This document shows positions 10,290 to 59,052 of a stretch of DNA of 64,000 nt, piece by piece. How positions within the stretch are numbered: the first letter of the stretch is position 1; each line of letters starts with the position of its first letter. Position numbers and translations under genes: made by a program. A model generated the notes under the pieces. That model was not told where the DNA came from. It made no database searches and saw nothing but the letters and a program-made list of their open reading frames with translations. Origin of the DNA: Dryococelus australis (taxonomy: Eukaryota; Arthropoda; Insecta; Phasmatodea; Phasmatidae); the NCBI GenBank assembly GCA_029891345.1, contig CM057009.1, positions 94,045,916 through 94,109,915 on the forward strand. Direction: 5' to 3'.

Positions 10290-11244
10290 CAGCCAGTGAA
10301 AGTGGCTGTGGAAATGCAACCTCATTTTGTGCGCAGTCAGGAACTGTCTGTACATAAAGAGTGTTTATTGTGGGGAAACAGGGATGTGATTCCATCCCAG
10401 CTGAATTCAGAGGTGATGAATCTACTGCATGATCAACATAATGGGGTAGTGCATATGAAAGCAGTGGCCCGAAGCTATTTCTGGTGGCCAAAACTGGATG
10501 CGGCCATTGGGCACGTGGTAAAGGATTGCAACATTTGCCAGCAGTGCCAAAATAACCCACCTAAAGTTAAAACGGTTGCCTGGCCAAAACCAGATAAACC
10601 TTGGTCACGTTTGCACATTGATTTTGCTGGCCCATTTCAAGGTTCAACATTTATAATAGTCATTGACGTCTTTTCCAAATGGCCTGAAGTCAGTTGGCCA
10701 TATCAGTCATTCAAGAGCTGCGCGATATGTTCAGTTGCCATGGGCTGCCAGCTGTCATTGTAGCAGACAATGGGACTGCATTCCAATCTCAAAAATGGCA
10801 GGGTTTGTGAAGAATAATCGTATAGAAATGGTTTTTTCTCCCCCATACCATCCTTCCAGCAACGGGTTGGCCGAAAGGACTGTACAAACAGTGAAGCAGA
10901 AGTTAAGAAACGTTACTGAAGGTGACTGGCAGACACGGTTGGCACGCATGTTATTAGCTTGGCGGACAACCCCACGACAAGGGGAAAATAATACCTGGAC
11001 GACTCCTACAGAGTTATTAATGGGGCGACCACTACAGACGGTTCTGGCCAAACTGCATCCAGGTACAGACAGGCACACCTACCAGGATACGCAGGTAGCA
11101 GGTGCAGTAGTGGCAGGGGCTCGACACTTCAGTGTGGTAGAGACCATATGGCTGCGTAACTACGTGAGTGGCTTCAAATGGATACCGGGTTGGATCAGTG
11201 GGGAGGAAGGACGGTTGATTGTTGATTTACCAGGTCACAGATGA
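10290..11244 (+). pseudogene. Ty3/gypsy integrase relic
   Basis: The N-terminal HHCC zinc finger is present (HDQHNGVVHMK ... CNICQQC). The core has the first catalytic Asp in RLHIDFAGPF. The segment of the second Asp (a DNG box) is reached only after a frameshift near 10690-10780. The catalytic Glu is kept in NGLAERTVQTVKQKL. A C-terminal domain and a short tail follow to 11244. At least two frameshifts and stops make it inactive. It is the downstream continuation of the 9590 relic. Confidence 0.88.
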
Positions 11245-14394: not shown

Positions 14395-15505
14395 TATGTG
14401 GGTTTGGTAGGTTCAGTTCATAATAGGGAAAGGATGGTTTTATGGTTCAGAATGGTTCATAGATACTTTGCCTTGGGCGCCAGCACGGAGAGCATGAATG
14501 ATGCAGTGCGTGATGGTCGACGGCCCTAAATGTGGCCCCCTCCGATGATCCACCATCTTGAAGATGTTGATGAGCTATATCCTGTAATGTCTGGGCTAGT
14601 GAGAGATATCAGCCTCTCTCAAAACTTATTCACTCCTGTGAGATTGTTTACGCTATCTCAACACATTAAGAAAAGTTACATCAGAATCATGAAAACGGGT
14701 TACGCGGCTGTTAAGCTGCTGGAGAAATAAGTAGTGTGCATTTCAAATGACAACACTATTTTATTTCCACTTCACTCCTCCTGAGAGGCACTAACATAAA
14801 AATATCCCCAGTGCAGCGCGGGGAACTCTGAAGCAGAAAAATGGTGTGAAGCCTATATGATGATTAAGTAAGAGAAATTACGGTCCCACAGTGAACAAAC
14901 TTGTACTATGGAGCGGCACTCTCCCCGAGATAGAAGAATGTAATTAAAAGGTTCCAGTACACAAAACTAACTATTTAACACTAGATTGAGAAAGATGAGG
15001 TAGGCCCGGGGAGGCAGCACATGGACGTCTACTCCACATGAGTACGATGATGCTACTAAAAGATGGTTGGTGCAGAGTTGGCTGACTGGCCAAGCGTTCC
15101 TGTTTGACTCATGAAAAACACTTAAATATGAAAATAATGATGATTAATGAAATGAGCTGAACATGTATGGTACTGATGATGAGGTGAAACACAAAAACAC
15201 AGTTAACTTTATTAAAAAATATATAATCAACAAAAAATATATAAAATGTTGACACTTAGTGCTTAACTCGGTTATGCAACACACAACCTCAACTAGTGTG
15301 CATTTTACATAGGGGCGTGTCTGGCTCAGCATCCAAAGTTCATAACACCTACTGTGCCCATGTATGTGAGAGGCTAGGAATTTTATTTTAATATATACGA
15401 AAATACTTGGAACATCTCTACATTAAAAATAAGAAATTTCCACGTGGCCTTTACGCATTATGTTTTATGTATTCACGTTTAGGCATGGTTGTGGCCTTGT
15501 GGTGC
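14395..15505 (-). mobile_element. LTR (left copy) of minus-strand gypsy provirus
   Basis: This 1.1-kb segment is a direct repeat of about 21660-22745. Shared landmarks are gggtttggta, actttgcc/actttgca followed by gggcgccagcac, gatgatccaccatcttgaagat, cacttcactcctcctgagagg, aaaaatatccccagtg and acatggccttta-like ends. It flanks integrase (from 15668) as a 3' LTR should for a minus-strand element. It lacks the AT-rich 500 bases present at the right end of the other copy, so it is partly deleted. Confidence 0.65.
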
Positions 15506-21659: not shown

Positions 21660-23245
21660 CATGAAATACGTAGGTTTGGTACATCAGAAGGAATGGTTGG
21701 TTTTAGGGTTGGGAATGGTTTGTAGATACTTTGCAATGGGCGCCAGCACAGAGAGCATGAATGATGCAGGGCGTGATATTCGACGGCCCTAAACATGGCC
21801 CCCTCTGATGATCCATCATCTTGAAGATGGTGATGAGCTATATCCTGTAATGCCTGGGCTAGTGATAAATGTCAGACTCTCTCAACGCTTATTCACTCCC
21901 GTGAGATTGTTTAGGCCATATCAACACCTTAAGAAAACTTACAAAAGAAACATGAAAATGGGTTATGTGGAAGTTAAACGGTGGGAGAAATAAGTACTAC
22001 GCATTTCAAATGACATCACTATTTTATTTCCACTTCACTCCTCCTGAGAGGCACTTACATAAAAATATCCCCAGTGAAGTGCGAGGAACTCTGAAGCAGA
22101 AAAATGGTGCAAAGACTACATGATGATTAAGTATGAGAAATTATGGTCCAGTCGTGAAGAAACGGTCTGGACTGTAGATTGGTACTCTGTGGGCTAAACA
22201 AATGTAATTAAAAGATTATGGTACCTAAAGCTAACTATTGAACACTAACATGATAGAGAAAGATGAAGTAGGCCCAGGACTTCCACTCCACAGACTTCCA
22301 CTCCACACGAGTACGATGATGATACATAAGATTATTTGGTGTGGAGCAGGCTGACTGGCCGAGCTTAAATATGAAAATAATGATGATTAATGAAATTAAC
22401 TTAACAGGTATGGCACTGATGATAAGGTGAAACACAAAAGCATTATTAACTTTATTTAAAAATACATTATCAACCAAATATACATAAAATGTTAACATTT
22501 AGTGCATAACTTGGTTACGCAAAACGTAACCTCAACTGGTATGCATTTTACATAGGGGGGGTGTCCGGCTCAGTGTCCAAAGTTCATTATGCCTATTATG
22601 CCTATGTATTTGAGAGGTTAGGAATTTTATTTTAATATATTGGAGAACACTTGGAATATCTGTACACTAAAATAAGAAATTGGTACATGGCCTTTACATG
22701 TTACGTTTTACCTGTTAATGTTTATGCATGGCTGTGGCCTCTGGCTGTTACGTTTCGCATGATGAATAAAAAAAAAAGCAATATTAACAAGACAACAAGG
22801 CACATATTAATTATTATAAATAGCACTGATTATAATAACAACATATAACCCTTAAATGAGACATTAATAAAAACACAGAATAAATTAATAATGCTGGATA
22901 CATTGCACATGCACATATATAACAATAAAGTGCTGCATGAAAATGCCAGACTAAGCATTGCACAAGAACAAGTAAACAAAACACAGCACAAACATAAAAT
23001 TACATGATTAACACTGGTAAATAAATAACAAAGCACTACACACGTAATAGTAATAATAACAACACTGAATGATAAATTAAAAGGCCCATGAAAATAAAAC
23101 ACAAATAAATACACACTGATGCACAGCTCCACACATGCACACATGGGGAACACTCTTTATGTGTTGCACTACTCTCACGTGGGTGGTGGGTGAACTGCTG
23201 GCTGACTATGAGACGAATGGTCTCGAGGGGTCACCACGCAGTACA
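21660..23245 (-). mobile_element. LTR (right copy) of minus-strand gypsy provirus
   Basis: The first 1.1 kb repeats 14395-15505. The remaining 500 bases (AT-rich tract, then ctcacgtggg and a gaggggtcacc end) match 4680-5130. On the minus strand it begins TGTACTGCGTGGTGACC, a standard LTR start. It adjoins the leader and gag as a 5' LTR should. Divergence from the left copy is considerable, so the insertion is old. Confidence 0.65.
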
Positions 23246-24150
23246 CGTCAGGGTCACACTGCACATCCATGGATGATGGGAATACAATTTGATTAAATGA
23301 AGGACACAAACACGGATCCCTTTTACTAGCTTTATTGGCCACAGCCGGCATATAGTACAGAACACAGTTCTCAGTTCAAAAAAACAAAAACATTATCATT
23401 ATTTTGAAAATAATAATAATACTGCCAATCTAAGAATATGCCCCTTGGGTATTAACAAAAATTGAGTCTCGCACTATTTCTGCTGGCCAGGATGCCAATG
23501 GATAAAACTCTGGAGTCGGCTGGTACCATAAAGTTCAACATGTGGCCGGCCTGGGGTACCGTGGCTCAGCCTGAAGACTAATTGAGTCCATGAGTGGTGA
23601 GTGCACATCTTCCAAAGTTAACTGAATTGTAGCCAGAAACTAAAATCAAGCAGTTTATTCAATGATGTGAAGGGCCCCACGGAACACACATCCATCCTTC
23701 ACTACTGTAGCTTTATGTTTGTGAGTGGCAACATGGTGGCTGGAAAGAATGACCAGAAGGCAACTTCCCCAGGTGTCCTTCCAGCCAGTACACACTACAA
23801 AAAAAACCTAACAAAAACTAAAACAATATGCCAATTTTTTGCAAAAAAAAATCAAACATAAATAATTACTTTGTTATGTTAAAAAACATTACTCAAATAA
23901 AAACACTTGATAATATTTTGGCTTGGATGGCCAAGAATGTGTGTTGTCTATATTTTGAGGGGTTTGAGAATATGTGACATCACATGGTGCTCAGGCACTT
24001 GGGTATTATTTGGTGATGTCATGTTTCTGCCAAGCATTTAGTATTGATCACTGCCTTCCTCCACCAACTTCTTACTCTGCTCACTCACCCTTTACACACT
24101 AACACATGCACTGGGTAACCACCAGGAATGAGTTAAAGGTGAGGGGAGAA
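23246..24150 (-). repeat. Right half of an older LTR-like repeat split by the gypsy provirus
   Basis: It matches 26880-27790 over its length. Shared blocks are gggtcacac(t/a)gcacatcca, ccttttactag(c/a)tttattg, aatatgccccttgg versus gattatgccccttgg, the caacatggtggctgg/caacatggcggccgg area, and gtgctcaggcacttgggta. With 14160-14394 it reconstitutes one unit, interrupted by the provirus. Confidence 0.65.
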
Positions 24151-26659: not shown

Positions 26660-27790
26660 ACTTGTCGCCATCTGTGGTAGTCAGGTGGACTGAACACATC
26701 CCCACAACACTAAGAGGAATACTAGTAGTTAATACCCAGGCCACCAATTAGCCTCTGCAGATTAACACAAGTGTGAGCATGAACTCTCAGGATGATGTGG
26801 AACATTCGGCCAGTGTAGCTGGGAGAATGAGTGACAAACGATACTGCTTTAATTTACACTCACACAAACAGCAGTGCTGTCAGGGTCACACAGCACATCC
26901 ATATTTTTACACTTTTATTAAATAAAGAATGCAAACACTGATACCTTTTACTAGATTTATTGTCCATAGCTGCCACGTGGTAAAAAAACACAGTTCTAAG
27001 TTCAAAAACCAAACATGCTATCCTCAAATTGTTAAAATAATAATGTTGCTGCCAGCCTATGATTATGCCCCTTGGAAATACACAAAATTTGAATTCTGTG
27101 TGATCTCCGCCGGCTAGGATGCCTACGGATAAATCTCAAGTACCAGCCGGTGCTGTGTGCCTACAACACATGGTTTACAAGTCACACAATTGCTCAGCCT
27201 GAAACTTAATTAAATGAATCAGTAATTGGTGAAGGCAAAATGCAGAAAAAGAACCAAGTTAACTAAACGACAGCCAAAAATTAAAATGAATCAGTTAAGT
27301 ACAATTTGAAGGCACCCATAAGACACATGTCCATCTCTCACCCCTGCTGCTGTACGATTGGCAACATGGCGGCCGGAAGGCAAACTCAGCAAGTGTCCTT
27401 CAAACCATTACACACAATTCAAAACCCTGATACCCTTATACAACATTATGTTAATTCTTTCGCATAATACAGTTCAGACATAAATAATCACTTTGGACAC
27501 TAAACAACATTACGAAAAAAAAAATTTTTTTTTTTAGATGTTTTGGCCTGGATGGCTGAGAGTATGTGACATCAATGTTTTAAGGGGTTCATAAGTATGT
27601 GACAACATGTGGTGTTCAGGCACTTGGGTACCACTCTGTGACGTTACGTTTTTGCCGAGCGTTTTGCACTGACCATTGTCTTTCTCCAACAAACACACTG
27701 CTTACTCAGCCTTTAACACACTTGCACATGCCCTTGGGGTGTTGTCTGGAGCTGCTAAGTAGCTACCGGTACTGGGCTAAAGGTGACTGG
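26660..27790 (-). repeat. Uninterrupted copy of the older LTR-like repeat
   Basis: It contains, without interruption, both halves that flank the provirus at 14395-23245. It therefore represents the empty-site form (junction around cagtgctgtcagggtcacac, 26870-26890). It has a possible AATAAA near 26922 on the plus strand and no coding sequence. Confidence 0.6.
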
Positions 27791-29924: not shown

Positions 29925-30105
29925 TAATCTGGAAGATAGATTAGTAAATAATTCTGTCCTCTCCGGATTGAAAAACTTGAAGGTATGGAGAACTACAATA
30001 ACTTGAAGTTTTCAATGGAAATGTATTTAATTCATAAAGATTTGTGGGTGTGCATTGAACCTGAGGCTAATAGCATCATCAGCGAAATTAAGGACAGGAA
30101 AGCAA
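29925..30105 (+). pseudogene. Ty1/copia Gag N-terminal fragment
   Basis: Translation from 29985 gives MENYNNLKFSMEMYLIHKDL followed by WVCIEPEA and, about 12 residues on, KDRKAM. This matches the N-terminal domain of copia Gag, in which a W/L-K-F-x-M-x-M-x-L pattern is followed by a D/K-LW segment. The frame upstream of the ATG is shifted. The protein is cut at about residue 40, where sequence of a gypsy LTR begins (about 30106). The rest of this copia element is not seen in the window. Confidence 0.8.
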
Positions 30106-31009
30106 TGTTTAGGAGGGGAGGAACAGGACACTGTGATCAGGGAGTAATGGGACACTGTCACACTCCTCCCATATATGAATTATATTTGTAAAATGTTGCT
30201 CCTTTTTATTGTGCGAGTAAGCAGTGTGTGTGTGTGGAGGACACAGAAGTGATATATCGGGTGGTGAGAACAGTGTAATGAAGGTCAGGCGAGTGAAAAT
30301 CCAAGAAGTGCGTATTTTGTTTCAAAAAGCGAGCTGCCACGATAATCCTTTCTGGTGCATGCTCCTGACCTTCAGTTACTTGAATTTCTGTGTAATCTAA
30401 AGAATTTTCTAGTGGCTTACTGCCCTAGTTTCTCTCACATGACTCAGAGTGCGTCGAACTTTCCAGGTCAAGGCCAGTGAGTATAAAAGTGTGACAGGTC
30501 TCCGAGCCAGGAGTTGATGAGTGGAGTGGAGTGGAGTGAAGTGAAGAGTTTTAAGAGTATCGAGAGTATGGGCGATCATGCAATATTAAGCAAGAGATGG
30601 CGAGCGAGAAGAGAAATGAGCGGCGAGAGAAGTGACCAGCGGGAGGAAAATCTGCGACTGAGCATCGGCGAAGCGAATGGTGCAACTGGCAGGCTAGACT
30701 ATTGGACTGGATGTGTAAGTTAAAGACATTACAAATGATGGTAACCAACAGACAGACAAAGTGTGTTAATGATAGGTATGAGGTAATTGAATATAACCAA
30801 ACAGATACATTAAGAAGGATGTTAAATAGAGTTAAAATATACATTAAATATTGTGCTCACTGAGAAATAAAAAGAATAATAGGGTAGCTAGATAGAATGC
30901 TGTAAATAATAGCTGTACGAATAAATTAAAATCAAATTTACTTCTTTTATTTTTATTAAGACCTCCATTCCTAACAAACTTGGATACACACCTCAGGTAT
31001 CTTGTAATA
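30106..31009 (+). mobile_element. Gypsy 5' LTR inserted in the copia gag
   Basis: The right end is fixed by a primer-binding site at 31010. The left end is either TGTTTAGGAGGGG (30106), where copia homology stops, or TGTCACACTCC (30156). It includes a TATA box gtataaaag at about 30481, a gagtggagtggagtg repeat just downstream, and AATAAA near 30865. No second LTR of this sequence was found in the window. Confidence 0.65.
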
Positions 31010-31029
31010 ATGATGTCAGAAGTGGGATG
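31010..31029 (+). promoter_or_regulatory. Gypsy primer-binding site
   Basis: The sequence atgatgtcagaagtgggatg is a variant of the tggtgtcagaagtggga leader found after many arthropod gypsy LTRs. It marks the LTR end at about 31009. Confidence 0.75.
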
Positions 31030-31076
31030 TAGGCATTTAATTGTGGATTAAGTTAAACAGTAGGCAAGTAATTAGC

Positions 31077-31082
31077 GATATT
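31077..31082. repeat. Target-site duplication GATATT, left
   Basis: It is identical to 36019-36024 and directly abuts the terminal inverted repeat of the 4.9-kb transposon. Confidence 0.85.
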
Positions 31083-31113
31083 GCACCACCAGTACAACAG
31101 GGCCACAACTAAA
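31083..31113 (+). repeat. Left terminal inverted repeat
   Basis: It begins GCACCACCAGTACAACAGGG and pairs with 35988-36018. A related gtggccatgttgca motif recurs inward near 31287 and 31346. Confidence 0.85.
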
Positions 31114-31528
31114 AACTGTCACTTTTCTCAGGAGGGAGCTTTGAAGTTTTCTTGGATGTGTTATAAATACAGCACTTTAATTAAAAAAGTACAACATAAT
31201 TTTGTTACTGACATTTTGACCCTAAAAATTAAGTACAATATACATTGTATAGTTTTGGTAATTTATATAGTTCTTTTTTGACTTGTGGCCATGTTGCAGT
31301 AACCTTTTTAAAGTTATTACCTCTAACGCAGTGTAAGGATTTTGACTTGTGGCATTGTTGCACAGCAATATTTTGTAAAATTTTGTAACCTACATACAAA
31401 TTGTATATCTAATACCTGTTGACATGTTTATATTAGAAAGTTTGACATCCATATTAATAAATACCAACATAAAATATTTGTAGACATTCGTTACATGGAT
31501 TCATAAAATGCTTCCTAAGCAAATGCAA

Positions 31529-33390
31529 TTAAACACATTCATCTGAGTCATCACCATCTTTAGGTGATCCATTTGCTTGCAAATGGAAATAAAAAGTATG
31601 GTGAACATTTGGAATAATGTTCGATCTGCAGAGATAGAAAAGATACCTGATCATGGCTACATTAATTTTTGGAGGTCCTTCTTTGTAGGCAGGAAGAAGT
31701 TCAGGATTTAAAGGGCATCCAGGAAATCCTCTTCTTGTGTCAATTTGTTCATAGTCACACTCCTCATAGTCAGTCTTAAAAAAAATTATGTCTGGAGATG
31801 CATTATTGGTATGCAGCACTTTGATGTAGTTACATTTAACTTTGTCGTCATTAGAATCGACTGTGTAGTTAAACACTGCACTTAAACAGTTTCAAATCCA
31901 TGATATCAGAGGAGCTCACTTCTTTGACTTCATAAGGTCTTCCTTCCTTTTTTGCCATTCTCAAAATTGGAGTCCACTGGGCTGGTGTATAGATTGGGCC
32001 AGATTTAAGAACTCTATTCTTCTGCCTTTCAGTGGTTGAATGCATGCTGTCTCCTTCGTTTTGTGTATGCCCAACTATAAAATTTTTTTTATGAGTTATA
32101 GCAGGAATTCCAAGATTTTGTACAGCATACAAGAAAAGACTGGCCATCGCCCTGTTTTTGTTCTGGCCACTGCAATTATCTGAGTAGAAAATTACTTTTT
32201 TTTTTTTTTTTTCAACGCAATGATCCTTCAAATACAGTAAAATACAGCTACCAATTTCATTTACCCCTCGCTTTGCTACAGACTCGCTCCAAAAATAGCA
32301 AACATCATGTTTGCATACAGTATCATAAATAGTGAAGTTGAAGCAGTTCAATTTTCGTTTATAATACAAGAATGAATGATTTCCACATGGAGCTTGAAGT
32401 ACAGCTTGCAGGTCAAAGCATGCTACAAAAGTGTCTCATCGTTACTGTTCTTGAAACTTTCACACAGTGAGCACTGGTCTTCTTTAGGCTTGAAGAAAGA
32501 AATATTCAATTCAGTAGAAAATATAACCTCATATGGATTTTTTGGCGTACACAAAATCTTCTGCTTTTTGTTTTTCGACATATGAATGATACATTTCAGC
32601 AAGTGTCAAACTGACTTTTAGATATTCATGTGAGGTCTGAGCTCGAAGATAATGAGATTCAATTCGTGGAAACAAATTTATATGTTCTCTGATTTAATTT
32701 TTAATTTTGTCTGAAATAGTCCTTTGTTTGTCATGGACTCCTCTCATTTCATTCTCCAAAACTCCACTTCTGTTCTGGTTTTTTCTTGAATTTCTTATGA
32801 ATTTATCACCACTGTCCAATGTTTTCATGAAGTAAGTTTTGCAAATTCTTTTCTTTTGTCCATTCACAGTGAAGTAGTATGACATATTGTGTCCCCTATT
32901 GCTGCCTTCTGTTTTCATTCTATATTTTGGAACTACTTCTGTCATATTTGCAACAATAAAATGTCTCTGTAAACTATGATCTCCAAGTCTCCAGAAACTT
33001 GCATGAATATTAAGCTGTTCATTTGCAGATATTTTTGGTGGACATTGAAGGCAACACTTTGACCACAGGAGCCTTTCAAAGAACAAGCTGGAACTTCTTT
33101 GTTGTTTTCAGTAGTGTATGTCTTTCCTGAATTGACCATTTTTTTATATTTATTTTCCACGCACTTTTTTTTCGAGTTCTTTTACGACACTTTTTAACAA
33201 CATTTTCCTTCTTATCGTTATCAGGAATATGTGATGCTGAGTCAACGTCTTTGTCTATACGTGATTACTCATACACTTTCTTCCCATTGATGACCGGACA
33301 TAAATCTTCAGTGTCTGTGCCAGATGTCAAACTATTATGCATGTAGGTAATGTCAACATCACTGTCATCTACTGATGTCATGGATGAATC
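31529..33390 (-). pseudogene. DUF7869-like transposase gene, main exons (broken)
   Basis: The candidate DDE protein has these parts, in order. An acidic start follows a splice acceptor (exon begins 33390), then a basic RKRTRKK segment. Next are cysteine pairs near QCPPKIS and HASFWRLGDHSLQRHFI, then VNGQKKRICKTYFMKTL (33086-32694), and HINLFPRIESHYLRAQTS (about 32690-32630). The core (32369-31869) has a preceding FDLQ, KRGVNEIGSC, FYSDNCSGQNKNRAM and VGHTQNEGDSMHSTTER. The C-terminal part is 31876-31529. FD, SDN and the ER Glu are plausible catalytic acids. Stops or frameshifts occur near 33255, 33060, 32690-32430 and 31873. An 18-T run (Lys codons) lies just before the SDN box. Confidence 0.8.
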
Positions 33391-34160
33391 CTGAAAACAA
33401 AATCAACATAGTAAATAATTCTATAATTAAATCTATTAATTTTGGCATCATTTGATCCCTATCAAAGCTTTAAAAAGATATTAATGCAAAGAATTTCTTC
33501 CTAATATAAATACTTATTTTCTGAAAAGTAAATATTGATACTAGAAACTTCTAGAAAAGAAACTTTTGAATTACAGGTGTTGTAAACAAACAATTTGGTC
33601 AGCTTGTTTTCAGTATTATAATTTTTCAATTACATTTCTTTAGGAAAAATATAAACATATTGAAAAATGTATAATATGGTTGCTAAAGGTCTGGAAAACC
33701 TGGAGAACCTGGGAACGTCAGAGAATTTGAAAATGGTACATAAGAAAAAAACTCAAATAAAACAAGTATAACGACTAGGTGGTCCAATCACAGCCAGCAA
33801 GTCGTAAGTAAAAACAAGTCCTCATTGTTGTAGAAGACAATAATCAAATGACTCTAACTCTAATATACAGAACTGATTTATAGTATTTTGCAAGATACAG
33901 TTTATAAAGTGAATTTTGCACGCCTCTACTACGAACTGTATGCCCCATTCAGTAGACTTGAGTTACACATGTTTAAATTCAATCACATTCGATGAATTAG
34001 AATTATTAAAATGTTGAAAAAGACTGGGATTTTATCTATTTCTGTCTGGAAAATGTGGAAAATTCAGGGAAATTTTAATTTGATATTCTGTAGAAACCCT
34101 GTAGAAATATCTATACTGTAATAATGGTTGATTACAATTTAAAAAAACTGTTATACTTAC

Positions 34161-34313
34161 GGACAGCAAGAATTCCTGCTGTTTGGGAATGGATTTTGTG
34201 GCACTACTTTGCAACTGTGGTAAAGCATTTTGCAGTGTTATGTACTCAGGTGTTACATTTTAACTTATCATCATCCCTCGGTCCACAACAGCATTTTTCT
34301 CAGTTATTGTGCC
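34161..34313 (-). pseudogene. Duplicated exon unit 3 of the transposon gene
   Basis: On the minus strand it has an acceptor ttttcag before 34313 and a donor gtaagt after 34161. It is 153 bases, a multiple of three. The translation begins GTITEKNAVVDRGMMIS, meets one stop, then continues with YITLQNALP. It is homologous to 34451-34612 and 34734-34883. Confidence 0.6.
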
Positions 34314-34450
34314 CTGAAAAAAGTTTGTATAAAACCACATTTAATATTGACAGTAAAAAAAATATTTTACAAAATTGAAACTGCTTCTCATAAAATGTAT
34401 ATTTAAAATGTATACAGTAAATAAAACTAGCATTATTGCAAAACACTTAC

Positions 34451-34612
34451 TGCTAATGATTGTTCAGAAGATAGATCTCTTGTAAGGCATTGCCACTGCC
34501 AATTGACTCTGGTAAGACATTTTGCAGAGTTATGTACTTAATTGTTCCATTTTTGTTTATCATCACTTGGTCCAAAACATTATTATTCTCGCTGCTTGAG
34601 CCCTGAAAATAT
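34451..34612 (-). pseudogene. Duplicated exon unit 2 of the transposon gene
   Basis: It has the same acceptor and donor context on the minus strand and is 162 bases, a multiple of three. The translation runs GSSSENNNVLDQVMINKN and YITLQNVLPESIGSG, with a stop near its end. It is homologous to the neighbouring units. Confidence 0.65.
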
Positions 34613-34733
34613 TACGAAGAATATGAGATTTAGTATTAAAACACTAATTCGTTTATTTCACAATTGGAACCACATCTTGTAATCTGCATTACAAAATGTA
34701 TATATAAAACTAGCATTCTGGCATTACACTTAC

Positions 34734-34883
34734 TGCTAATTTAAATCCATAAGACAGGTAAATCTTTTGTAAGGCACTGCCACTGGAAACTGGAAAAGTA
34801 TTTTGCAGGATCGTGTACCCAAGTGTTATATTTTGGCTTTTCATCCTTTCGTCCATGCCAGTATTTTCATCATTACTTGAGCC
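34734..34883 (-). pseudogene. Duplicated exon unit 1 of the transposon gene
   Basis: On the minus strand it has acceptor ttttcag/GGCTC and donor gcag/gtaagt. It is 150 bases and fully open in phase zero: GSSNDENTGMDERMKS then YTILQNTFPVSSGSALQKI. It is the best preserved of the three tandem units. The repeat has no family I recognise. Confidence 0.7.
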
Positions 34884-35098
34884 CTGAAAAATGCACCAAA
34901 AAAATCACCTTCCACATTAAGACATTCATTAATTATACAATTCCAACACCAACACATAAACTGTCCCAAATTAATGTAAATCATAAATTCAAATGTTAAG
35001 TATTGCAGTTAAAAGTTTTAGATGGTGTTGCACAATCTACTTTCTAAGTAAAAGGCAACATATAACATAGTTATCTATATCAATTAGCATTACTTACC

Positions 35099-35145
35099 TT
35101 TCCATTATGTTCCAAATTCAGAGCAGTTTTTCATTCTTCTCCATT
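35099..35145 (-). pseudogene. Possible first exon of the transposon gene
   Basis: On the minus strand an ATG begins MEKNEKLL, one stop intervenes, and the exon ends at a perfect donor (ggaaag/gtaagt, boundary 35099). It is the most upstream segment with splice signals before the right terminal repeat. Confidence 0.4.
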
Positions 35146-35672
35146 GTTATCCAGATTTGCTAATGCTAATTGCACAAGCTTATTGCTCCTTGACATTATT
35201 TCTTCTCATTAGTATAAACATGCAAATAATAATCTTTAAAGTGTTACTAATACTACATTCCCCCCAAAAACCAAATGATGTTATCAACTGTTTACTACCA
35301 AGAACCATAGAAGATATATCAGAAAGAAATGTATCTCACTATGGTAGAAACCATGGAGGTAGGAATACACAGAAACACAATGTTCTACTCTCAACCGCTA
35401 CGGATGCCATTGTAGTAATTTCTTTTTTATGACATTACTGCAACTTGCATTTCATTATTACATTGGTGCAAATCTTTTATAATTTATAAATATTTACAAT
35501 TAATCTTGGTGACAACACCGGAACTGTGACCTATTATTGGTCATACTTTATTATTATTGTGAAATTTACATTTCAATTATGGTACAACCCTGCAAAATGA
35601 CCACGAATCAACATGAGGCTGGTTTGCTCATATTTTGTGTCACAAGTTACGTGTATTATTGTCACAAATAAA

Positions 35673-36012
35673 CATGTGGCCCTATTACACTAATATAATA
35701 CTTGTACAATACAGACACAATTCTACATTATGCCAACAATTCTTGTACAGCAAGGACACAATTCAACATATGGCAGTATTACACTAACATAATTCTTGTG
35801 CGACAAGGATACAATTTAAAATGTGACTCTATTGCACTGATAATTCTACAAAAATTACTCAGATACATAAGGAATTATGTGCCATTTATTGACATTTTAT
35901 GAAACTAAACATCTGGCCTTCTTGCACTTGATAAAACAACGGAAAAGGAATACAGATATGGCTTTATCTCAAAATTGATTTTTTTTTTTTAGATGTGGCC
36001 CTGTTGCACTGG
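35673..36012. repeat. Subterminal repeats of the DNA transposon
   Basis: A motif like catgtggccctattgcact occurs at about 35673, 35767, 35821, 35910 and, as part of the terminal repeat, 35993. Spacings are 54-94 bases. Inverted counterparts at the other end are near 31287 and 31346. Repeated subterminal motifs are typical transposase binding sites. Confidence 0.65.
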
Positions 36013-36018
36013 TGGTGC
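35988..36018 (-). repeat. Right terminal inverted repeat
   Basis: It ends ctggtggtgc and is the inverted match of 31083-31113, with two mismatches in about 31 bases. Confidence 0.85.
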
Positions 36019-36024
36019 GATATT
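36019..36024. repeat. Target-site duplication GATATT, right
   Basis: It is identical to 31077-31082 and immediately follows the right terminal repeat. Confidence 0.85.
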
Positions 36025-36086
36025 AAAACAAAAATTAATTAACAAAGACTGTTTGTACAATTATCACAGTGACAGCTAACTAGAAA

Positions 36087-36734
36087 ATATCTACAGAACT
36101 GGAAGCACTGCGAGCATTAATTGAGGGATTAGGTAGCCAAGTGAGCACACGTGATAAGAGCCATGATAAAAAAATTAGTAGTGAGAATGAAGCTGTGCAT
36201 ACCCAAATTAATAGTGTGAAAGGGTGTGTAAATGAAATTGTAAATAACCAAATTAGTTCAGTAATTGTGAATGTAAACGAGAATGTAAATAGTCAGATAA
36301 TTACTATAAGTGATTTAGTAGACATGAAATATGAAAATGTAGACAGAAAAATAAACTGTAAATGAAAATGTAGACAGGAAAATAAAAGGCTTAGTGAGTT
36401 GGTGAATGAAAGAGTTGAGTATAAGCACAAGAAAATTGACAGTGTAAAAGACAGAATGGACAATGTCGAGAATGAAGTTAAACAGGGAATAGGCACAATG
36501 AAGAAGGAATGGCAGCAATTTCTTCAGCAGCGAAGTTTGCCTATTACCACATTGGCAGTCAAGAAAAGTGGAGAAGCAATACAAGTCATAACCCACGCAG
36601 CAACCTTGAAGGATAACCAGCAGCTCCACTGCATTAGTGTAGCACAACCAGGTGCGGGGAAGGGGGTCTCAATTAAGTCTGTCCCTTATGATTGCCAGAC
36701 TTCATGGTGGGAGTACCAACACCAGATTAAATAA
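36087..36734 (+). pseudogene. Gypsy Gag N-terminal relic, coiled-coil rich
   Basis: It begins around ELEALRALIEGLGSQ and carries repeated VNEIVNNQI / VNENVNSQI heptad-like motifs. It then has a stop near 36365 and continues as a Lys/Glu-rich helix (VEYKHKKIDSVKDRMDNVEN) to 36734. This fits the N-terminal coiled coil of Gag in the gypsy element whose LTR and primer site lie at 30106-31029, with the DNA transposon inserted between. Confidence 0.55.
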
Positions 36735-36769
36735 GTCGCTACCCTGAATCGCTGGTCAGCCTAGCAGGT

Positions 36770-37300
36770 GTACTGAGAGGCCCCGTACTGAGCATGCTAC
36801 AATCTCTGCCAAAACGACATCGACTCGAGTATCCCATGCTCGTGTTGACCTTGTAACTACGTTTTGCGAAGCTGCACCCTGCAACCAGGGAAGCCACTGC
36901 AGGAGCTATAGCAAGACATTGTGCAGATTTCCCACCTATCTCTGGAAGGGTGCTCCGAGGAGTCATGAAGCTTGGTAACATTAGCATGGAGCACAATACA
37001 TACATAGCAGAAATAGGGGATGAATGTCTTTGGGGCATGAAATACTGCATAGACTGGGGTGCTGTATCGATACTCAACTTGGTGTGCTACAGGTAGGCTG
37101 TACAGAGTTGATGTCGACACCGAATGATTTGTAAACCCCAAGTGGCTGCCCTGTAGTCTGTGGTCAAACCACTGTGATGCTCTCTTCTAGTGCAATTGTC
37201 ATTATAGGCAGACGCCAAGGAAAATTAGCCAGGCATTTGGGTATAACTGAGACAAAAGAGAGGGTTGGCATCCTGCCAGGTAAAGTCGTAGCAAGAAATT
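36770..37300 (+). pseudogene. Gypsy protease-region relic
   Basis: In broken frames it contains VLRGVMKLGNISMEHNTYIA followed by ECLWGMKYCIDWGAV (about 36945-37070). This is the C-terminal half of a gypsy retropepsin, where the family has ...V-x-(I/V)-x-H-x-x-(F/Y)-V-A-x-I-x-x-x-C-(I/L)-L-G. The active-site D-T-G was not found intact. It precedes RT in the expected order. Confidence 0.6.
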
Positions 37301-37439
37301 TGGTGGAATTTGGTCTTCTCTAATTCTGACAGTTTTCCAGTTAAAATTATAAATTCGTCCGATAGTGACATTCATCTTGAGAAGGGGGCCATGATAGGTA
37401 TTTGTAGGCAGTTAACACACATGATTCCAAATGTCCCAG

Positions 37440-37795
37440 AAGATCTAGAGTAGAACAAATAGAATGTCTTCTACCAGAAGTACTGGTTGAACTGTTAGTA
37501 CGAACAAGAGAAAGTTTTAACTGGTGCCAGGAGAAGGCTGTGTCTGAATTACTGAAGAGAAATAGGGATGTCTTCTCATGTGGACCAAATAACCTTGGAA
37601 GGACTAACATGACCTGCCACCACATTGGTACAGGAGATATCAGACTCATAAAGCAGCTACCAAGACTGCTGCCACTAGCTATACATAAGGCAGTTGAGGG
37701 GATTGTGAAGGATATTTGGGAGTTAGATATGATAGAACCACCAGTTAGTCTGTGGTCATCATCCATTGTACTTGTTACGATGAAAGATGGCTCTC
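37440..37795 (+). pseudogene. Gypsy reverse transcriptase N-terminal relic
   Basis: An open stretch matches the start of gypsy RT: LLKRNRDVFSCGPNNLGRTN, HHIGTGDIRLIKQLPRLLPL, and DMIEPPVSLWSSSIVLVTMK ending KDGS. Homology stops right after the KDGS motif, where the minus-strand LINE sequence begins, so the catalytic palm is absent. It belongs to the gypsy element of 30106-37795. Confidence 0.85.
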
Positions 37796-39290
37796 CCCCC
37801 GCTGAACTCCTGCATTGGAGGTGCTCTGATCGCATCCATGGACAGGAACTTCTTCCTGTCGTGATGAGTGCTAGGTGAGAGGGCTCCCCTCATACTCATT
37901 TAAGACCAGAATTATTGGGGAGACTTGTTCATCCGTCTTGGGTGTTCATGTCATTCCCGTCCACCAAACTTTCCCCAAACTCACCGTTCAAACTACAGCT
38001 CGACCACCAGACATTGAACTCTTCCCGTCTTTTGCAGATAGACGTGAGGTATCTTAGCACCTCTGGCACCCTGAGAATGTCCCTGAGCCGAAGAGGTCCA
38101 TGTTTCCCCTCAAATTCTATGCGTAGGTCCGCTATCTTGGGACACTCCACTGTGTGGGCTGGGGTGTCAGGCACCCCACAGATCACACAATCCAGGTGGT
38201 CAACCAGGCTCATTGAAGACAACTTCTCCCTGAAACTTCCGTGCCCAGTCAAGAACTGCGCAGAGTAGTAACTTCTCCCTGAAATTTCCGTGCCCAGTCA
38301 AGAACTGCGCAGAGTAGTGACCTATTACTAGCCACTTCATCATACGCAGCCTCTCCTGGACATCAGGAAAGATAGAATATGTGGTTCTTCCCTTATCCGA
38401 ATTGTCCCATCTAGTTTGCCACATTCTCATGGTGGCTTCTCTTCATGCCTTTATTTCCTCGGGGAGTATCCCTCCCCATTTTCTCCTGGCAAATTCACCT
38501 CTTTCCACCATGAAGAGGTCTAGTGGGACTTCTCCGGCAACCACTTGCAGGGCCTCGTTGGAAGTTTTCCTATAGGCCTTTATGACCCCCAGCAGTGCTG
38601 CTCGATATGCACTTATTAATCTCAGCTTTCAAAAGACTTTCTCCGCCTTGGGGTATCATACCCCACACACATACATGAGAATGGGCAGGAAAATTGACCT
38701 GTACATCAATTTAAACATCTGGTAGCCGAGACCCCAGTTTGCAGGAGCCACAGCTCTCAGCCTCTGAAACATCACCACAGCCTTGTTCGCCGCATAGCGC
38801 ACGTGACCATGGAACGCAAGATGTGATTCCAATATTATGCCAAGGTACTTCATCTCCTGTACCCCTATCACTACCCTGTCCTTAACCTGGAATACAGGTT
38901 TTCGCTTTAAGTTAACCTTCAATAAGATAGAATTCATCTTCTCGACCGAGAACTCCAACTTGAAATTCTTGGCCCACTGGTGTATTCTCGTTAGGGCACT
39001 TTCTGCTTTCTCCTCAAGCTCTCTTCTAGTCCTGGCAGGTATCAGGAGCAATACGTCATCTGCATACTTATAAATCATGCAACCATGCGGGAGGTCAAGC
39101 CTCAACAGTCCCTCGAAGATCACATTCCAGAATATCAGTCCAAAGACCGACCCTTGCAGGCAGCCCTAGGACAACACCTTCTACCCCCTGCGTGTACCCA
39201 ATTCTAGGCCACAAGTCCTGTATGCCAGGAAACTCTTAATCATCTCGAAGATATTCCTGGGGCACATACAACGAAAATACCCTCAACCAT
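37796..39290 (-). pseudogene. R1/I-type LINE, 3' part of the RT ORF
   Basis: On the minus strand from 39290 come FLAYRTCGLELGTRRG, then GCLQGSVFGLIFWN, and YKYADDVLLLIPARTR with an intact Y-A-D-D. Next are EFSVEKMNSILLK and EMKYLGIILESHLAFHGHV (39123-38656). The C-terminal zinc-finger-like CVICGVPDTPAHTVEC is at about 38197-38147. This is the C-terminal architecture of R1/I-clade LINEs. The 5' end (endonuclease, RT start) is missing. Stops, frameshifts and a 49-bp tandem duplication at 38221-38318 disrupt it. It abuts the gypsy RT relic at 37795. Confidence 0.88.
38221..38318. repeat. 49-bp tandem duplication inside the LINE
   Basis: Two consecutive units (38221-38269, 38270-38318), both starting aacttctccctgaaa, differ at one base. 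The period is not a multiple of three, so the duplication shifts the LINE frame. Confidence 0.95.
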
Positions 39291-50244: not shown

Positions 50245-51132
50245 ATCAATTGTATACTAGATGATCCTGACATACATGTACAAATGCTATGAGAGGATTC
50301 CCTGTGCAAAATAAGATAGAAAACACTATACAAACAATGTCATAGAGTAACTTGTAAGGGAGGTAGCCACCCTTGAAAATCACTATATCAAATGGTTCTA
50401 CCAGAAAATAATGAACCCTACATGAGATAAAGGAGCCATTCTATGAATAATGTTGTCTTCAACCAAGATCTGAATCCTGAGAACAGTTGTGGTGTACTAT
50501 CATGCCCTATATTGAGACACTAGGGGGTAGTATATTGTTATCCTACAATGTGTGTGTAACCTTCAGGTATTTTGTAAAGACGTGATAATCATACGTTACT
50601 GCATGGAAACATGTTACCTTGATGTAACTCACTCAGATGAACAGTGTCCGAGACAACAAAGTGTGTACGGATGCACTTGGTTGCCTGCCAGGTATGCAAC
50701 CCAGTGCATACTTACAAACTTTGTTGTCTTGAACACTGTTCGTCTAAGAGTGTTACGTCAAGGTAATGTATTTCTGTGCAGTAATGTATGAAGACATATT
50801 TCCAAAATACCAGAGGGTTACACACACTTTGGTAGGATAGTACATACCACCCCCTAGGGTCTCAATGTAGGGGATGATAGTATGCCACAATTGTTTGTAC
50901 ATTTCAGGTCTTGGTCAAAGACATCATCATTCACAGAATGGCTCTTTCATCTCATGTCGGTTTCATTATTTTCTGGTAGAACCATTTGATATAAATATTT
51001 TCAAGGGTGGCTACCTCCCTTACGAGTTACTGTACATTATTCGTATAATGTTTTCTGTCCCATTTTGCATAGGGAATCACCTCACAGCATTTGTACCTGT
51101 AGTTCACGATCAACCTGTATACTCATTTATTG
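50245..51132. repeat. Large fold-back (near-palindromic) unit 1
   Basis: Left arm 50245-50688 is the reverse complement, with scattered differences, of 50689-51132. Examples are gtaacttgtaagggaggtag (50347) against ctacctcccttacgagttac (51011-51030), aaatggttctaccagaaaat against its inverse near 50976, and agacaacaaagt against actttgttgtct near the centre (about 50688). The loop is very short. Transcripts would form a hairpin of about 440 bp. Frames inside (50552-50791, 50874-51149) are not supported as genes. Confidence 0.85.
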
Positions 51133-56867: not shown

Positions 56868-59052
56868 CAGTGAAGCGTTGATAATCCGGATTAAATGGGA
56901 CCAGACCCCTTCCGGATTATCAAATTGTCCGGATTTTCGAAATGAACCAATAAAAGGGACAGTAGACGTCCTCAAGGTAAAAAAACTTGCTAAAATTGTT
57001 CATAATTCACTCTGTTGGTTACAGAAGTGGAGCGAATGAATAAAACCATTAATGTAGTAAAATTTGTACGTGTTTTAACTACAGAAAAAAATATTTTACT
57101 GTATGTACAATATTGCATGTACAGTCAGTCTTATTTTATGTACAGTAAATCTAGGCCTACAAAAAATACAGTACAGTAAAGTACAGTAATAAAAATATGT
57201 ATTTACAGTAAAACATATATTTAAGATTAAAAAAAAATCTTTTATGGGCTTTTGAACAGCTGCAGTGTTTTTTTTTGCAGCTAAGTCCTTGATTCATTTT
57301 AGGAGAATGAGCTGGGTTGGTGTGCTCTCAGTCTGTTTTTCAAGCCATGACATTAGTGTGTCTGCTGCCATAAATGATTCAGAATGTGTCGGCCCTGCTT
57401 CTGCAATGTCATTTTCATTCTCGTCCCAATCAGATTCTATTGTTTATGCGTACCCTTAAAATAAACAAAGAAACAAATGTTTTCTTTTTCTAATTTTATA
57501 GAAAAAATGAACAAGTACAAAGTTGGTTAAATATCTAAAAAATAGAACAGTGAATTTAAAATGACTGCATACCTTCAGACACTATGTCAGCTATTTCTTG
57601 GTTGCTCAAAATCTGGTATCCAGAATTGTTGTCATCAACAGTCAACCACTCACTGGTATCATTTTCATCACACTGTTCAAATCACAGGATCGCTCTGCAG
57701 ATTTCTGTCACCTCTTTTATCTTCTTTTTCTTGATCACTCCTTGGTCCATTGACTGCAGAGTTGCAGTAACGTTAGGTGGGAGAAATTGCACTTCGAAAT
57801 TCTGATCGATTTTGTTTAATACTTCGAGAGGGGAATGTATGGGTGCATTATTAATGATAAGCAGAACTTTCCCACTTTTATTTTTCTCCTCACGGAATTT
57901 TGTAACACTAGGGATAAATTCATCTTGAAACCAATCAAGAAAAATTACTGAAGTCATCGAAGCACTTTTCTGAGACATGTACAAAACAGAAAGGGTTTGC
58001 ACATTTTTAAAGCTACGTGGTTTTTTGCTCTTCCCAATCACTAACAGTTTTACATTGTGCTCCCCAATGGCATTAGCACATACCCTAGCTGTAATCCTCT
58101 CTTTGCTAACTTTAAACCTGGGAGCGGATTTTTCACATCTTGATGCCAGCGACTTGCGTGGAAGGGCTCGCCAGTTTATCCTGGTCTCATCGGCACCCCT
58201 AGAATAACCTTTTTCAGGTGCTTCCTTAATAAACTTCTCTTTAAAAACACTTCCAGCTGCTAAATCTGAGGAATGTTTTTCTCCTTTGATGTCTAACTCT
58301 CTAATGCTGTGCCTAGATTTGAAGTTCTTAAGCCAGCCAGAACTGGCTTTGAAATCTTTTGGTCCATTATGCTGTTCACTAAATTGTAAGGCTTTTTCAC
58401 AATCATTGGGCTTGAAATGGGCTCTCCTAAGCTTCTCCTGTGAGTAAACCACATATACATAGTATCTTTTAAGGCTTTGTTGTTTGCTGAACATGCAGTT
58501 TTTCTTTTCAACGTCCCTTCTTCACAGTCCCATTTTGATGTAAATTGTCCCAGCTGGGCTCTTTTCGCCTTAATATCACTTTTAGTGGAAGTTCCTACAC
58601 CATAAATCTTTGCAAGTGATACCCCACTTTCACCTTTTCCTAACCTTTCTAAAATTTTTAACTTGGTTTCAACGGTTACAAAAGTATGCTTTTTCTTCGA
58701 ACTCAACGCCATCATGGGTACAGAACAGTAATGTGTTACAAAAAACAAAACACAGACTAACTGACACACAAAAACACACTACTGTACACAAACTATAGGT
58801 TTGGTAAACAAAAACTTAGTGCACGCACAGAGAACAATGCTCGAGGTCAGAAGCCTGACGCGACTGATAGTGGCAGGGGAGCAAGTATATGACCTTGATG
58901 CTCCCGCTTTCACTGCCCCTCCCTCCTCCACACAACATGCAATTCACTCTCCACTCTGTAGGGCACGGCGAGCTTTACACTTTTAAAAGAATCAAATTCG
59001 GATTATCGACGGTTAAAATTTATTTGACGTACGAATTACTGATGCCCCACTG
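56868..59052 (-). mobile_element. pogo/Tigger-type DNA transposon, 2.2 kb
   Basis: The ends are inverted repeats: left CAGTGAAGCGTTGATAATCC, and right (inverted) CAGTGGGGCATCAGTAATTC. TA dinucleotides flank both sides (56866-56867, 59053-59054), the target duplication of the Tc1/mariner-pogo group. It contains one minus-strand transposase relic (58769-57550). Confidence 0.85.
57550..58769 (-). pseudogene. Tigger-like transposase (broken)
   Basis: The N-terminal helix-turn-helix runs from MALSSKKKHTFVTVETKLKI to VSLAKIYGVG. A CENP-B-type DNA-binding segment (LQFSEQHNGPKDFKASSGWL, LKNFKSRHSIRELDI) follows in another frame after a frameshift near 58460. In the DDE_1 catalytic domain the first Asp is in ADETRINWRALP. 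The second box reads VLLIINNAPIHSP where LDNAP is canonical, so that Asp is Asn. The third is kept in LPPNVTATLQSMDQGVI. Right after it about 100 residues are missing. The typical C-terminus then resumes (EICRAIL, stop, ...SGYQILSNQEIADIV). Confidence 0.9.

Follow-up and report, generated by a model that had tools for sequence, protein, structure and literature searches.

A DUF7869 gene between inverted ends in the genome of Dryococelus australis: a probable inactivated cut-and-paste DNA transposon

The stretch analysed here, referred to as the window, comprised 64,000 nucleotides of the genome of Dryococelus australis (assembly GCA_029891345.1, contig CM057009.1, positions 94,045,916 to 94,109,915) and was found to contain a 4.9-kb element at 31082-36019 with inverted ends of about 32 base pairs (bp) each. 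The element enclosed one minus-strand gene with similarity to the Pfam family DUF7869, and repeated motifs were present near both ends. The features of the element, in window positions, were as follows.

31078-31081: target duplication, left copy ATAT in the 4-bp reading, based on the sequence and on the ANNT rule of families A and B (below)
31082-31113, plus strand: left terminal inverted repeat, starting with T (mostly C in relatives)
31092-31363: left copies of the end motif TGTGGCCCTGTTGCAC, at 31092-31107 (minus), 31284-31299 (plus) and 31348-31363 (plus)
31529-31891, minus strand: DUF7869 transposase, C-terminal fragment in a different frame
31869-32435, minus strand: catalytic piece, 188 codons open, with candidate triad codons D 32414-32412, D 32180-32178 and D 32051-32049
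32435-32587, minus strand: piece in another frame, matching relatives (P0002 residues 300-350)
32517-33107, minus strand: N-terminal half, containing conserved Cys and His as well as in-frame stops; open stretch 32694-33107
33050-33381, minus strand: probable N-terminus in two frames, the first ATG lying presumably near 33381
34214-34890: internal direct repeats upstream of the gene, three copies, spacing 281-292 bp
35675-36009, plus strand: right copies of TGTGGCCCTGTTGCAC, at 35675-35690, 35822-35837, 35912-35927 and 35994-36009
35988-36019, minus strand: right terminal inverted repeat, ending GGTGGTGCG
36020-36023: target duplication, right copy ATAT

The arms 31078-31115 and 35986-36023 were found to be inverted and 92% complementary across 38 nucleotides, and the 31-bp terminal inverted repeats with two mismatches described in an earlier first-pass annotation of this DNA were present. 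When up to 3 mismatches were allowed across the 64-kb window, a 20-base end pattern gave 2 matches against 0.01 expected and TGTGGCCCTGTTGCAC, a 16-base piece of the end, gave 7 matches against 0.71 expected. All seven matches of TGTGGCCCTGTTGCAC were located within roughly the outermost 350 bp of the element, at both ends, an arrangement that resembles the array expected of transposase-binding sites and may be one. The string GATATT was found at 31077-31082 and again at 36019-36024.

The coding trace of the gene extended from about 33381 to 31529 and was found to contain the motifs YSDNCSGQNKN and GHTQNEGDSMHS, both as annotated at first pass. The gene itself was broken, with fragments in different frames and in-frame stops, and was short by about 36 residues ahead of the catalytic region relative to P0002. 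The DUF7869 match of the catalytic piece was located exactly at the Pfam cut-off (26 bits). The element in the window is probably an old, inactivated cut-and-paste DNA transposon, the single recognised gene of which encodes a DUF7869 transposase.

Among 30 DUF7869 loci of the same genome (L011-L040), two large DNA families, A and B, were found to contain inverted ends around a gene with the motif GHSxLxCD, unlike that of the window. Family A has the end sequence TGAACCGC and family B TGAAGACTTG, and the inverted partner ends were about 2.9 kb apart in the four A/B copies first measured. Both ends were sought in 24 loci (18 of family A, 6 of family B), 18 of which were readable; L018, L028, L030, L039, L032 and L037 were dropped with one end missing or weak, L017 was without a left end, and L020, L022, L023, L031 and L033 were outside the two families. 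An exact 4-bp direct repeat was found to flank 16 of the 18 readable copies, against 5.57 expected from reshuffled ends, and none of 20000 shuffles was as good; L025 and L034 were the two copies without the match. The repeat was ANNT in all but one copy, which contained CAAT (L035), and the insertion site was found to be YANNTR, with conserved Y (16/18), A (16/18), T (18/18) and R (17/18) nucleotides. A 6-bp reading was found outward in 0/18 copies and centred in 3/18, against 0.64 expected. The 2-, 3- and 4-bp readings tied at 16/18 each, because the outer A and T nucleotides were nearly fixed. Both sides of L035 carried C in the position of the A, which argues for counting the outer base to the target and for a 4-bp length; the first idea of a duplication of exactly 2 bp was replaced on this ground, although 2 bp is still possible. 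Target duplications are demonstrable in families A and B, with 4 bp as the favoured length.

Window-type elements were read at 13 loci (L065-L069, L072-L079) of the 89 matches that a query of the genome with P0001 had returned from 77 scored of 6273 candidates. Inverted ends around a DUF7869 gene were found in L065, L068, L073, L074 and L075, and L073 and L075 represented one family, C, the left end of which gave 30 matches including themselves. The left end was read in 15 more family-C copies, where the first two nucleotides were CG (10), TG (2), CA (2) or AG (1), and CG was also found at both ends of L065 and in L009. The left flanks of these 15 ends were found to contain A at base -4 (14/15), C or T at base -5 (15/15) and T at base -1 (10/15), which is the same YANNT pattern as in families A and B. 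Since window-type relatives mostly begin 5'-CG, the ends of the window element lie one base further out than had been annotated, and the window reads ATAT|TGCACC...GGTGCG|ATAT in this register; the T in place of C at its left end is compatible with CpG decay. ATAT was then found on both sides in the window, L065 and L075. In the CG register GATATT is therefore accounted for as ATAT extended on each side by a chance agreement between a base of the element and a base of the flank, and ATAT (4 bp) is a better reading of the flanking duplication of the window than GATATT (6 bp). The string reported at first pass was thus present on both sides, but a 6-bp duplication was not supported.

The window family might instead truly make the 6-bp GATATT, with ends starting at G 31083 and with a duplication length that varies among DUF7869 families. 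The exact six-base match at the apparent window ends agrees with this, as do L065 and L075, which match at 4/6 bases when placed likewise (read by eye). The CG starts of 10/15 further family-C left ends, of both ends of L065 and of L009, the low number of 6-bp readings in families A and B, and the lack of a 6-bp repeat in L007 (below) make it an unlikely explanation.

A search of the 3.4-Gb genome with the left end of the element gave 6 matches, namely the window twice and four other places. L007 was found to span both ends and was 84.5-87% identical to the window in three main pieces, L008 was a partial copy of the window family, and L009 and L010 were short end pieces only. The first-pass annotation had proposed such a search for copies with 6-bp duplications; other copies were found, and L007 showed no 6-bp repeat. 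DUF7869 itself was abundant in the genome, with 1555 first-look candidates, 150 of them scored and rows marked above the Pfam cut-off, and was found in 0/14 control genomes. One DUF7869 match, at G000:C3:324598366-324599301, was reported with 2001 codons of open frame and may be a fusion or a captured copy.

Several points from the window-type copies count against the duplication as read here. Apart from the window copy, L007 was the one full member of the window family found, and it was without a duplication (TGTT vs GTAT). L068, L073 and L074 contained inverted ends with no exact duplication by eye, and L096 contained none either when L108 was taken as its possible, weak right end (ATAT vs GTTT). 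Only 3/8 window-type copies with both ends readable were matched, all by ATAT, and as ATAT is palindromic these matches cannot separate a 2-bp from a 4-bp length. Clear right ends were found for none of the 15 further family-C copies at 2.65-3.15 kb from the left end (10 copies) or at 3.7-4.6 kb (15 copies). L066/L067 and L076/L078 were tried as end pairs and set aside, being relatives with unconvincing ends.

Several separate families were found to contain the DUF7869 gene between inverted ends, with demonstrable target duplications in two of them, and the identification of DUF7869 proteins as transposases is therefore well supported, in line with the transposase lineage suggested at first pass. 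The features of the terminal-inverted-repeat order of transposons were present, namely terminal inverted repeats around a transposase-type gene and a duplication of fixed length in families A and B (3/8 in the window type). The gene could also be a passenger or a host gene caught between inverted ends in an element that is moved by another transposase. Two families with unlike DNA (A and B) and several window-type families carry such a gene between inverted ends, though, and no second gene was recognised when the three longest open stretches were inspected in each A/B locus of 3.4 kb, four A/B copies being about 2.9 kb long; a passenger gene is accordingly a very improbable explanation. As a transposase, the DUF7869 protein would bind the repeated end motifs, probably via its Cys-rich N-terminal half, would use three aspartates (DDD) of an RNase H-like core, and would excise the element and join it to the target with 4-bp staggered cuts. 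The window copy would have been inserted at ATAT.

The read-through query gave 469 relatives at E <= 0.001 among 3481 candidates, and DUF7869 was found in all of the 120 relatives listed, the named ones being from insects. The family-B protein query gave 74 relatives, including one spider and one sea anemone protein. The B-type and window-type protein sets were found to be homologous over 567 columns (probability 100), and family A was linked to both by the Pfam DUF7869 profile. Residues of the candidate catalytic core were counted in 194 relatives, using at each position only the sequences with a letter there. D469 was found to be conserved in 190/191, D544 in 191/191 and D586 in 186/189 sequences, followed by E593 in 184/190, whereas E584 and H589 were features of the window type. 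The third acidic residue common to the subgroups was the D of 'GD/CD', with the E located seven residues later; the E of NEGD was rejected as third catalytic residue because it was not conserved across subgroups. Of the core of FD, SDN and later Glu boxes proposed at first pass, the conserved order of three acidic residues was retained, with D in place of E as the third. The H of DxxH was H in 121 and F in 67 of 189 sequences with letters, F being found in other DUF7869 subgroups. In the catalytic region of the A2 consensus, a weak similarity to Pfam DUF7717 was found (E 0.0011, under its cut-off), possibly a further branch.

The three near-invariant acidic residues, in their order, fit an RNase H-like DDD transposase, and around them strands and helices follow one another, by visual judgement, as in an RNase H-like fold. 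From these sequence features the DUF7869 core may be predicted to adopt this fold. A coevolution analysis of 188 sequences (effective number 141), in which the segment borders were chosen after earlier runs, gave mixed backing and weak support. By best single score, the four expected neighbouring strand pairs were ranked 1, 2, 4 and 5 of 10. Several results weigh against this reading. One unexpected strand pair was ranked third of 10, only 2/4 expected pairs exceeded the 95% level of random segments when the best five scores were averaged, and the preferred strand orientation agreed with the RNase H-like fold in 1/4 expected pairs. Among the Pfam matches listed (in one scan, 25 of 54 families), no known transposase profile was found and no family of known function stood out. 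A sequence search of solved structures gave one chance-level match (E 2.3) and, with the consensus query, none. The bacterial IS3/IS150 core, taken as a shallow IS150-type profile, was compared by hhalign with a probability of 0.12%, like that of control pieces of the same protein (0.14% and 0.09%). The consensus core gave no match in NCBIfam, and no relative was found in the viral and prokaryote contigs scanned with alignment A1.

The first-pass annotation had taken the 6-bp duplication as a hint at Dada or IS3EU-like groups, and as that duplication was not supported, the hint was not supported either. Dada resembles the window type in a DDE-type transposase with DxxH after the second D. According to PMC3706591, Dada targets RNA genes and duplicates 6-7 bp on insertion, and no terminal inverted repeats were found in the Dada that targets small nuclear RNA genes. 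The DUF7869 elements differ in their long inverted ends, in the 4-bp duplication and in the replacement of the H of DxxH by F in other subgroups. Unlike the multicopy RNA genes targeted by Dada, the window site contained no match to Rfam families in 30000-37500. IS3EU/GingerRoot is likewise a DNA transposon with a DDE-type transposase, and complete IS3EU families are described with TA..TA termini and usually 6-bp duplications in PMC10045372 and PMC12730594. The ends found here were instead CG..CG or GAA..TTC inside a 4-bp duplication, and the 6-bp reading fits at most 3/18 A/B copies, the window copy being readable in this way only when taken alone. The Pfam families listed, 25 of 54, did not include the integrase core rve.

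No family of the Kyakuja, Dileera and Zisupton group (KDZ) was found among the Pfam matches listed. The Zisupton duplication is 8 bp long, and an exact outward match of 8 bp was found in 0/18 A/B copies. The hAT, MuDR, P and Kolobok superfamilies were placed in a C/DxxH group in PMC10045372, and a C/DxxH-like motif was also found in the window type; however, the H was not conserved across DUF7869, and these transposases were absent from the Pfam matches listed.

Sola comprises DDD transposases in three very divergent groups with 4-bp target duplications. On these two points, the DDD residues and the 4-bp duplications, DUF7869 fits the description. Distinct subgroups within one superfamily are a further likeness, Sola1, 2 and 3 being so treated in Repbase according to PMC4455052. 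That the DUF7869 elements are members of Sola or of another catalogued Repbase superfamily, with only the Pfam link new, is a real possibility, at somewhat less than even chance. With about the same chance, DUF7869 may represent an unnamed DDD transposon superfamily. It would have at least two deeply separated branches (of GHTQNEGD and GHSFLxCD type), would duplicate 4 bp of the pattern ANNT at YANNTR sites and would carry binding-motif arrays close to its ends. In the part of the literature covered, no paper contained 'DUF7869', none contained 'transposase' together with SDNCSGQNKN, and none was recognised as describing these elements.

The DUF7869 family is abundant, and its transposase nature is unlabelled in Pfam. 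Were it an unnamed superfamily, few unlabelled protein families of insect genomes would be more abundant. The transposase identity would let many predicted host genes of arthropods and cnidarians be relabelled as mobile DNA, and the 4-bp ANNT rule together with CG or GAA ends serves annotators as a key when searching for copies, whether complete or non-autonomous. A young DUF7869 element could be tried as a gene-delivery tool in insects.

When the window was compared with itself, no further copy of the element's flanks was listed. The flank stretch 37408-37878 (plus strand) gave no Pfam match, and the gypsy label given to the flank at first pass, with its exact resumption after the duplication, was unconfirmed. 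An integrase core (rve_3) fragment was found at 10660-11244 (plus strand). A transposase remnant of another kind was found at 57682-58521 (minus strand, 279 codons open), with DDE_1 and a Tc5-type DNA-binding domain. The stretch 50252-51122 was found to match its own reverse complement (879 columns, 81%) and so forms an extended palindrome or inverted repeat. Two direct repeats, each about 1.1 kb long and 81% identical to one another, were located at 14407-15497 and 21670-22740, and a further pair of 67% identity at 23247-24115 and 26879-27737.

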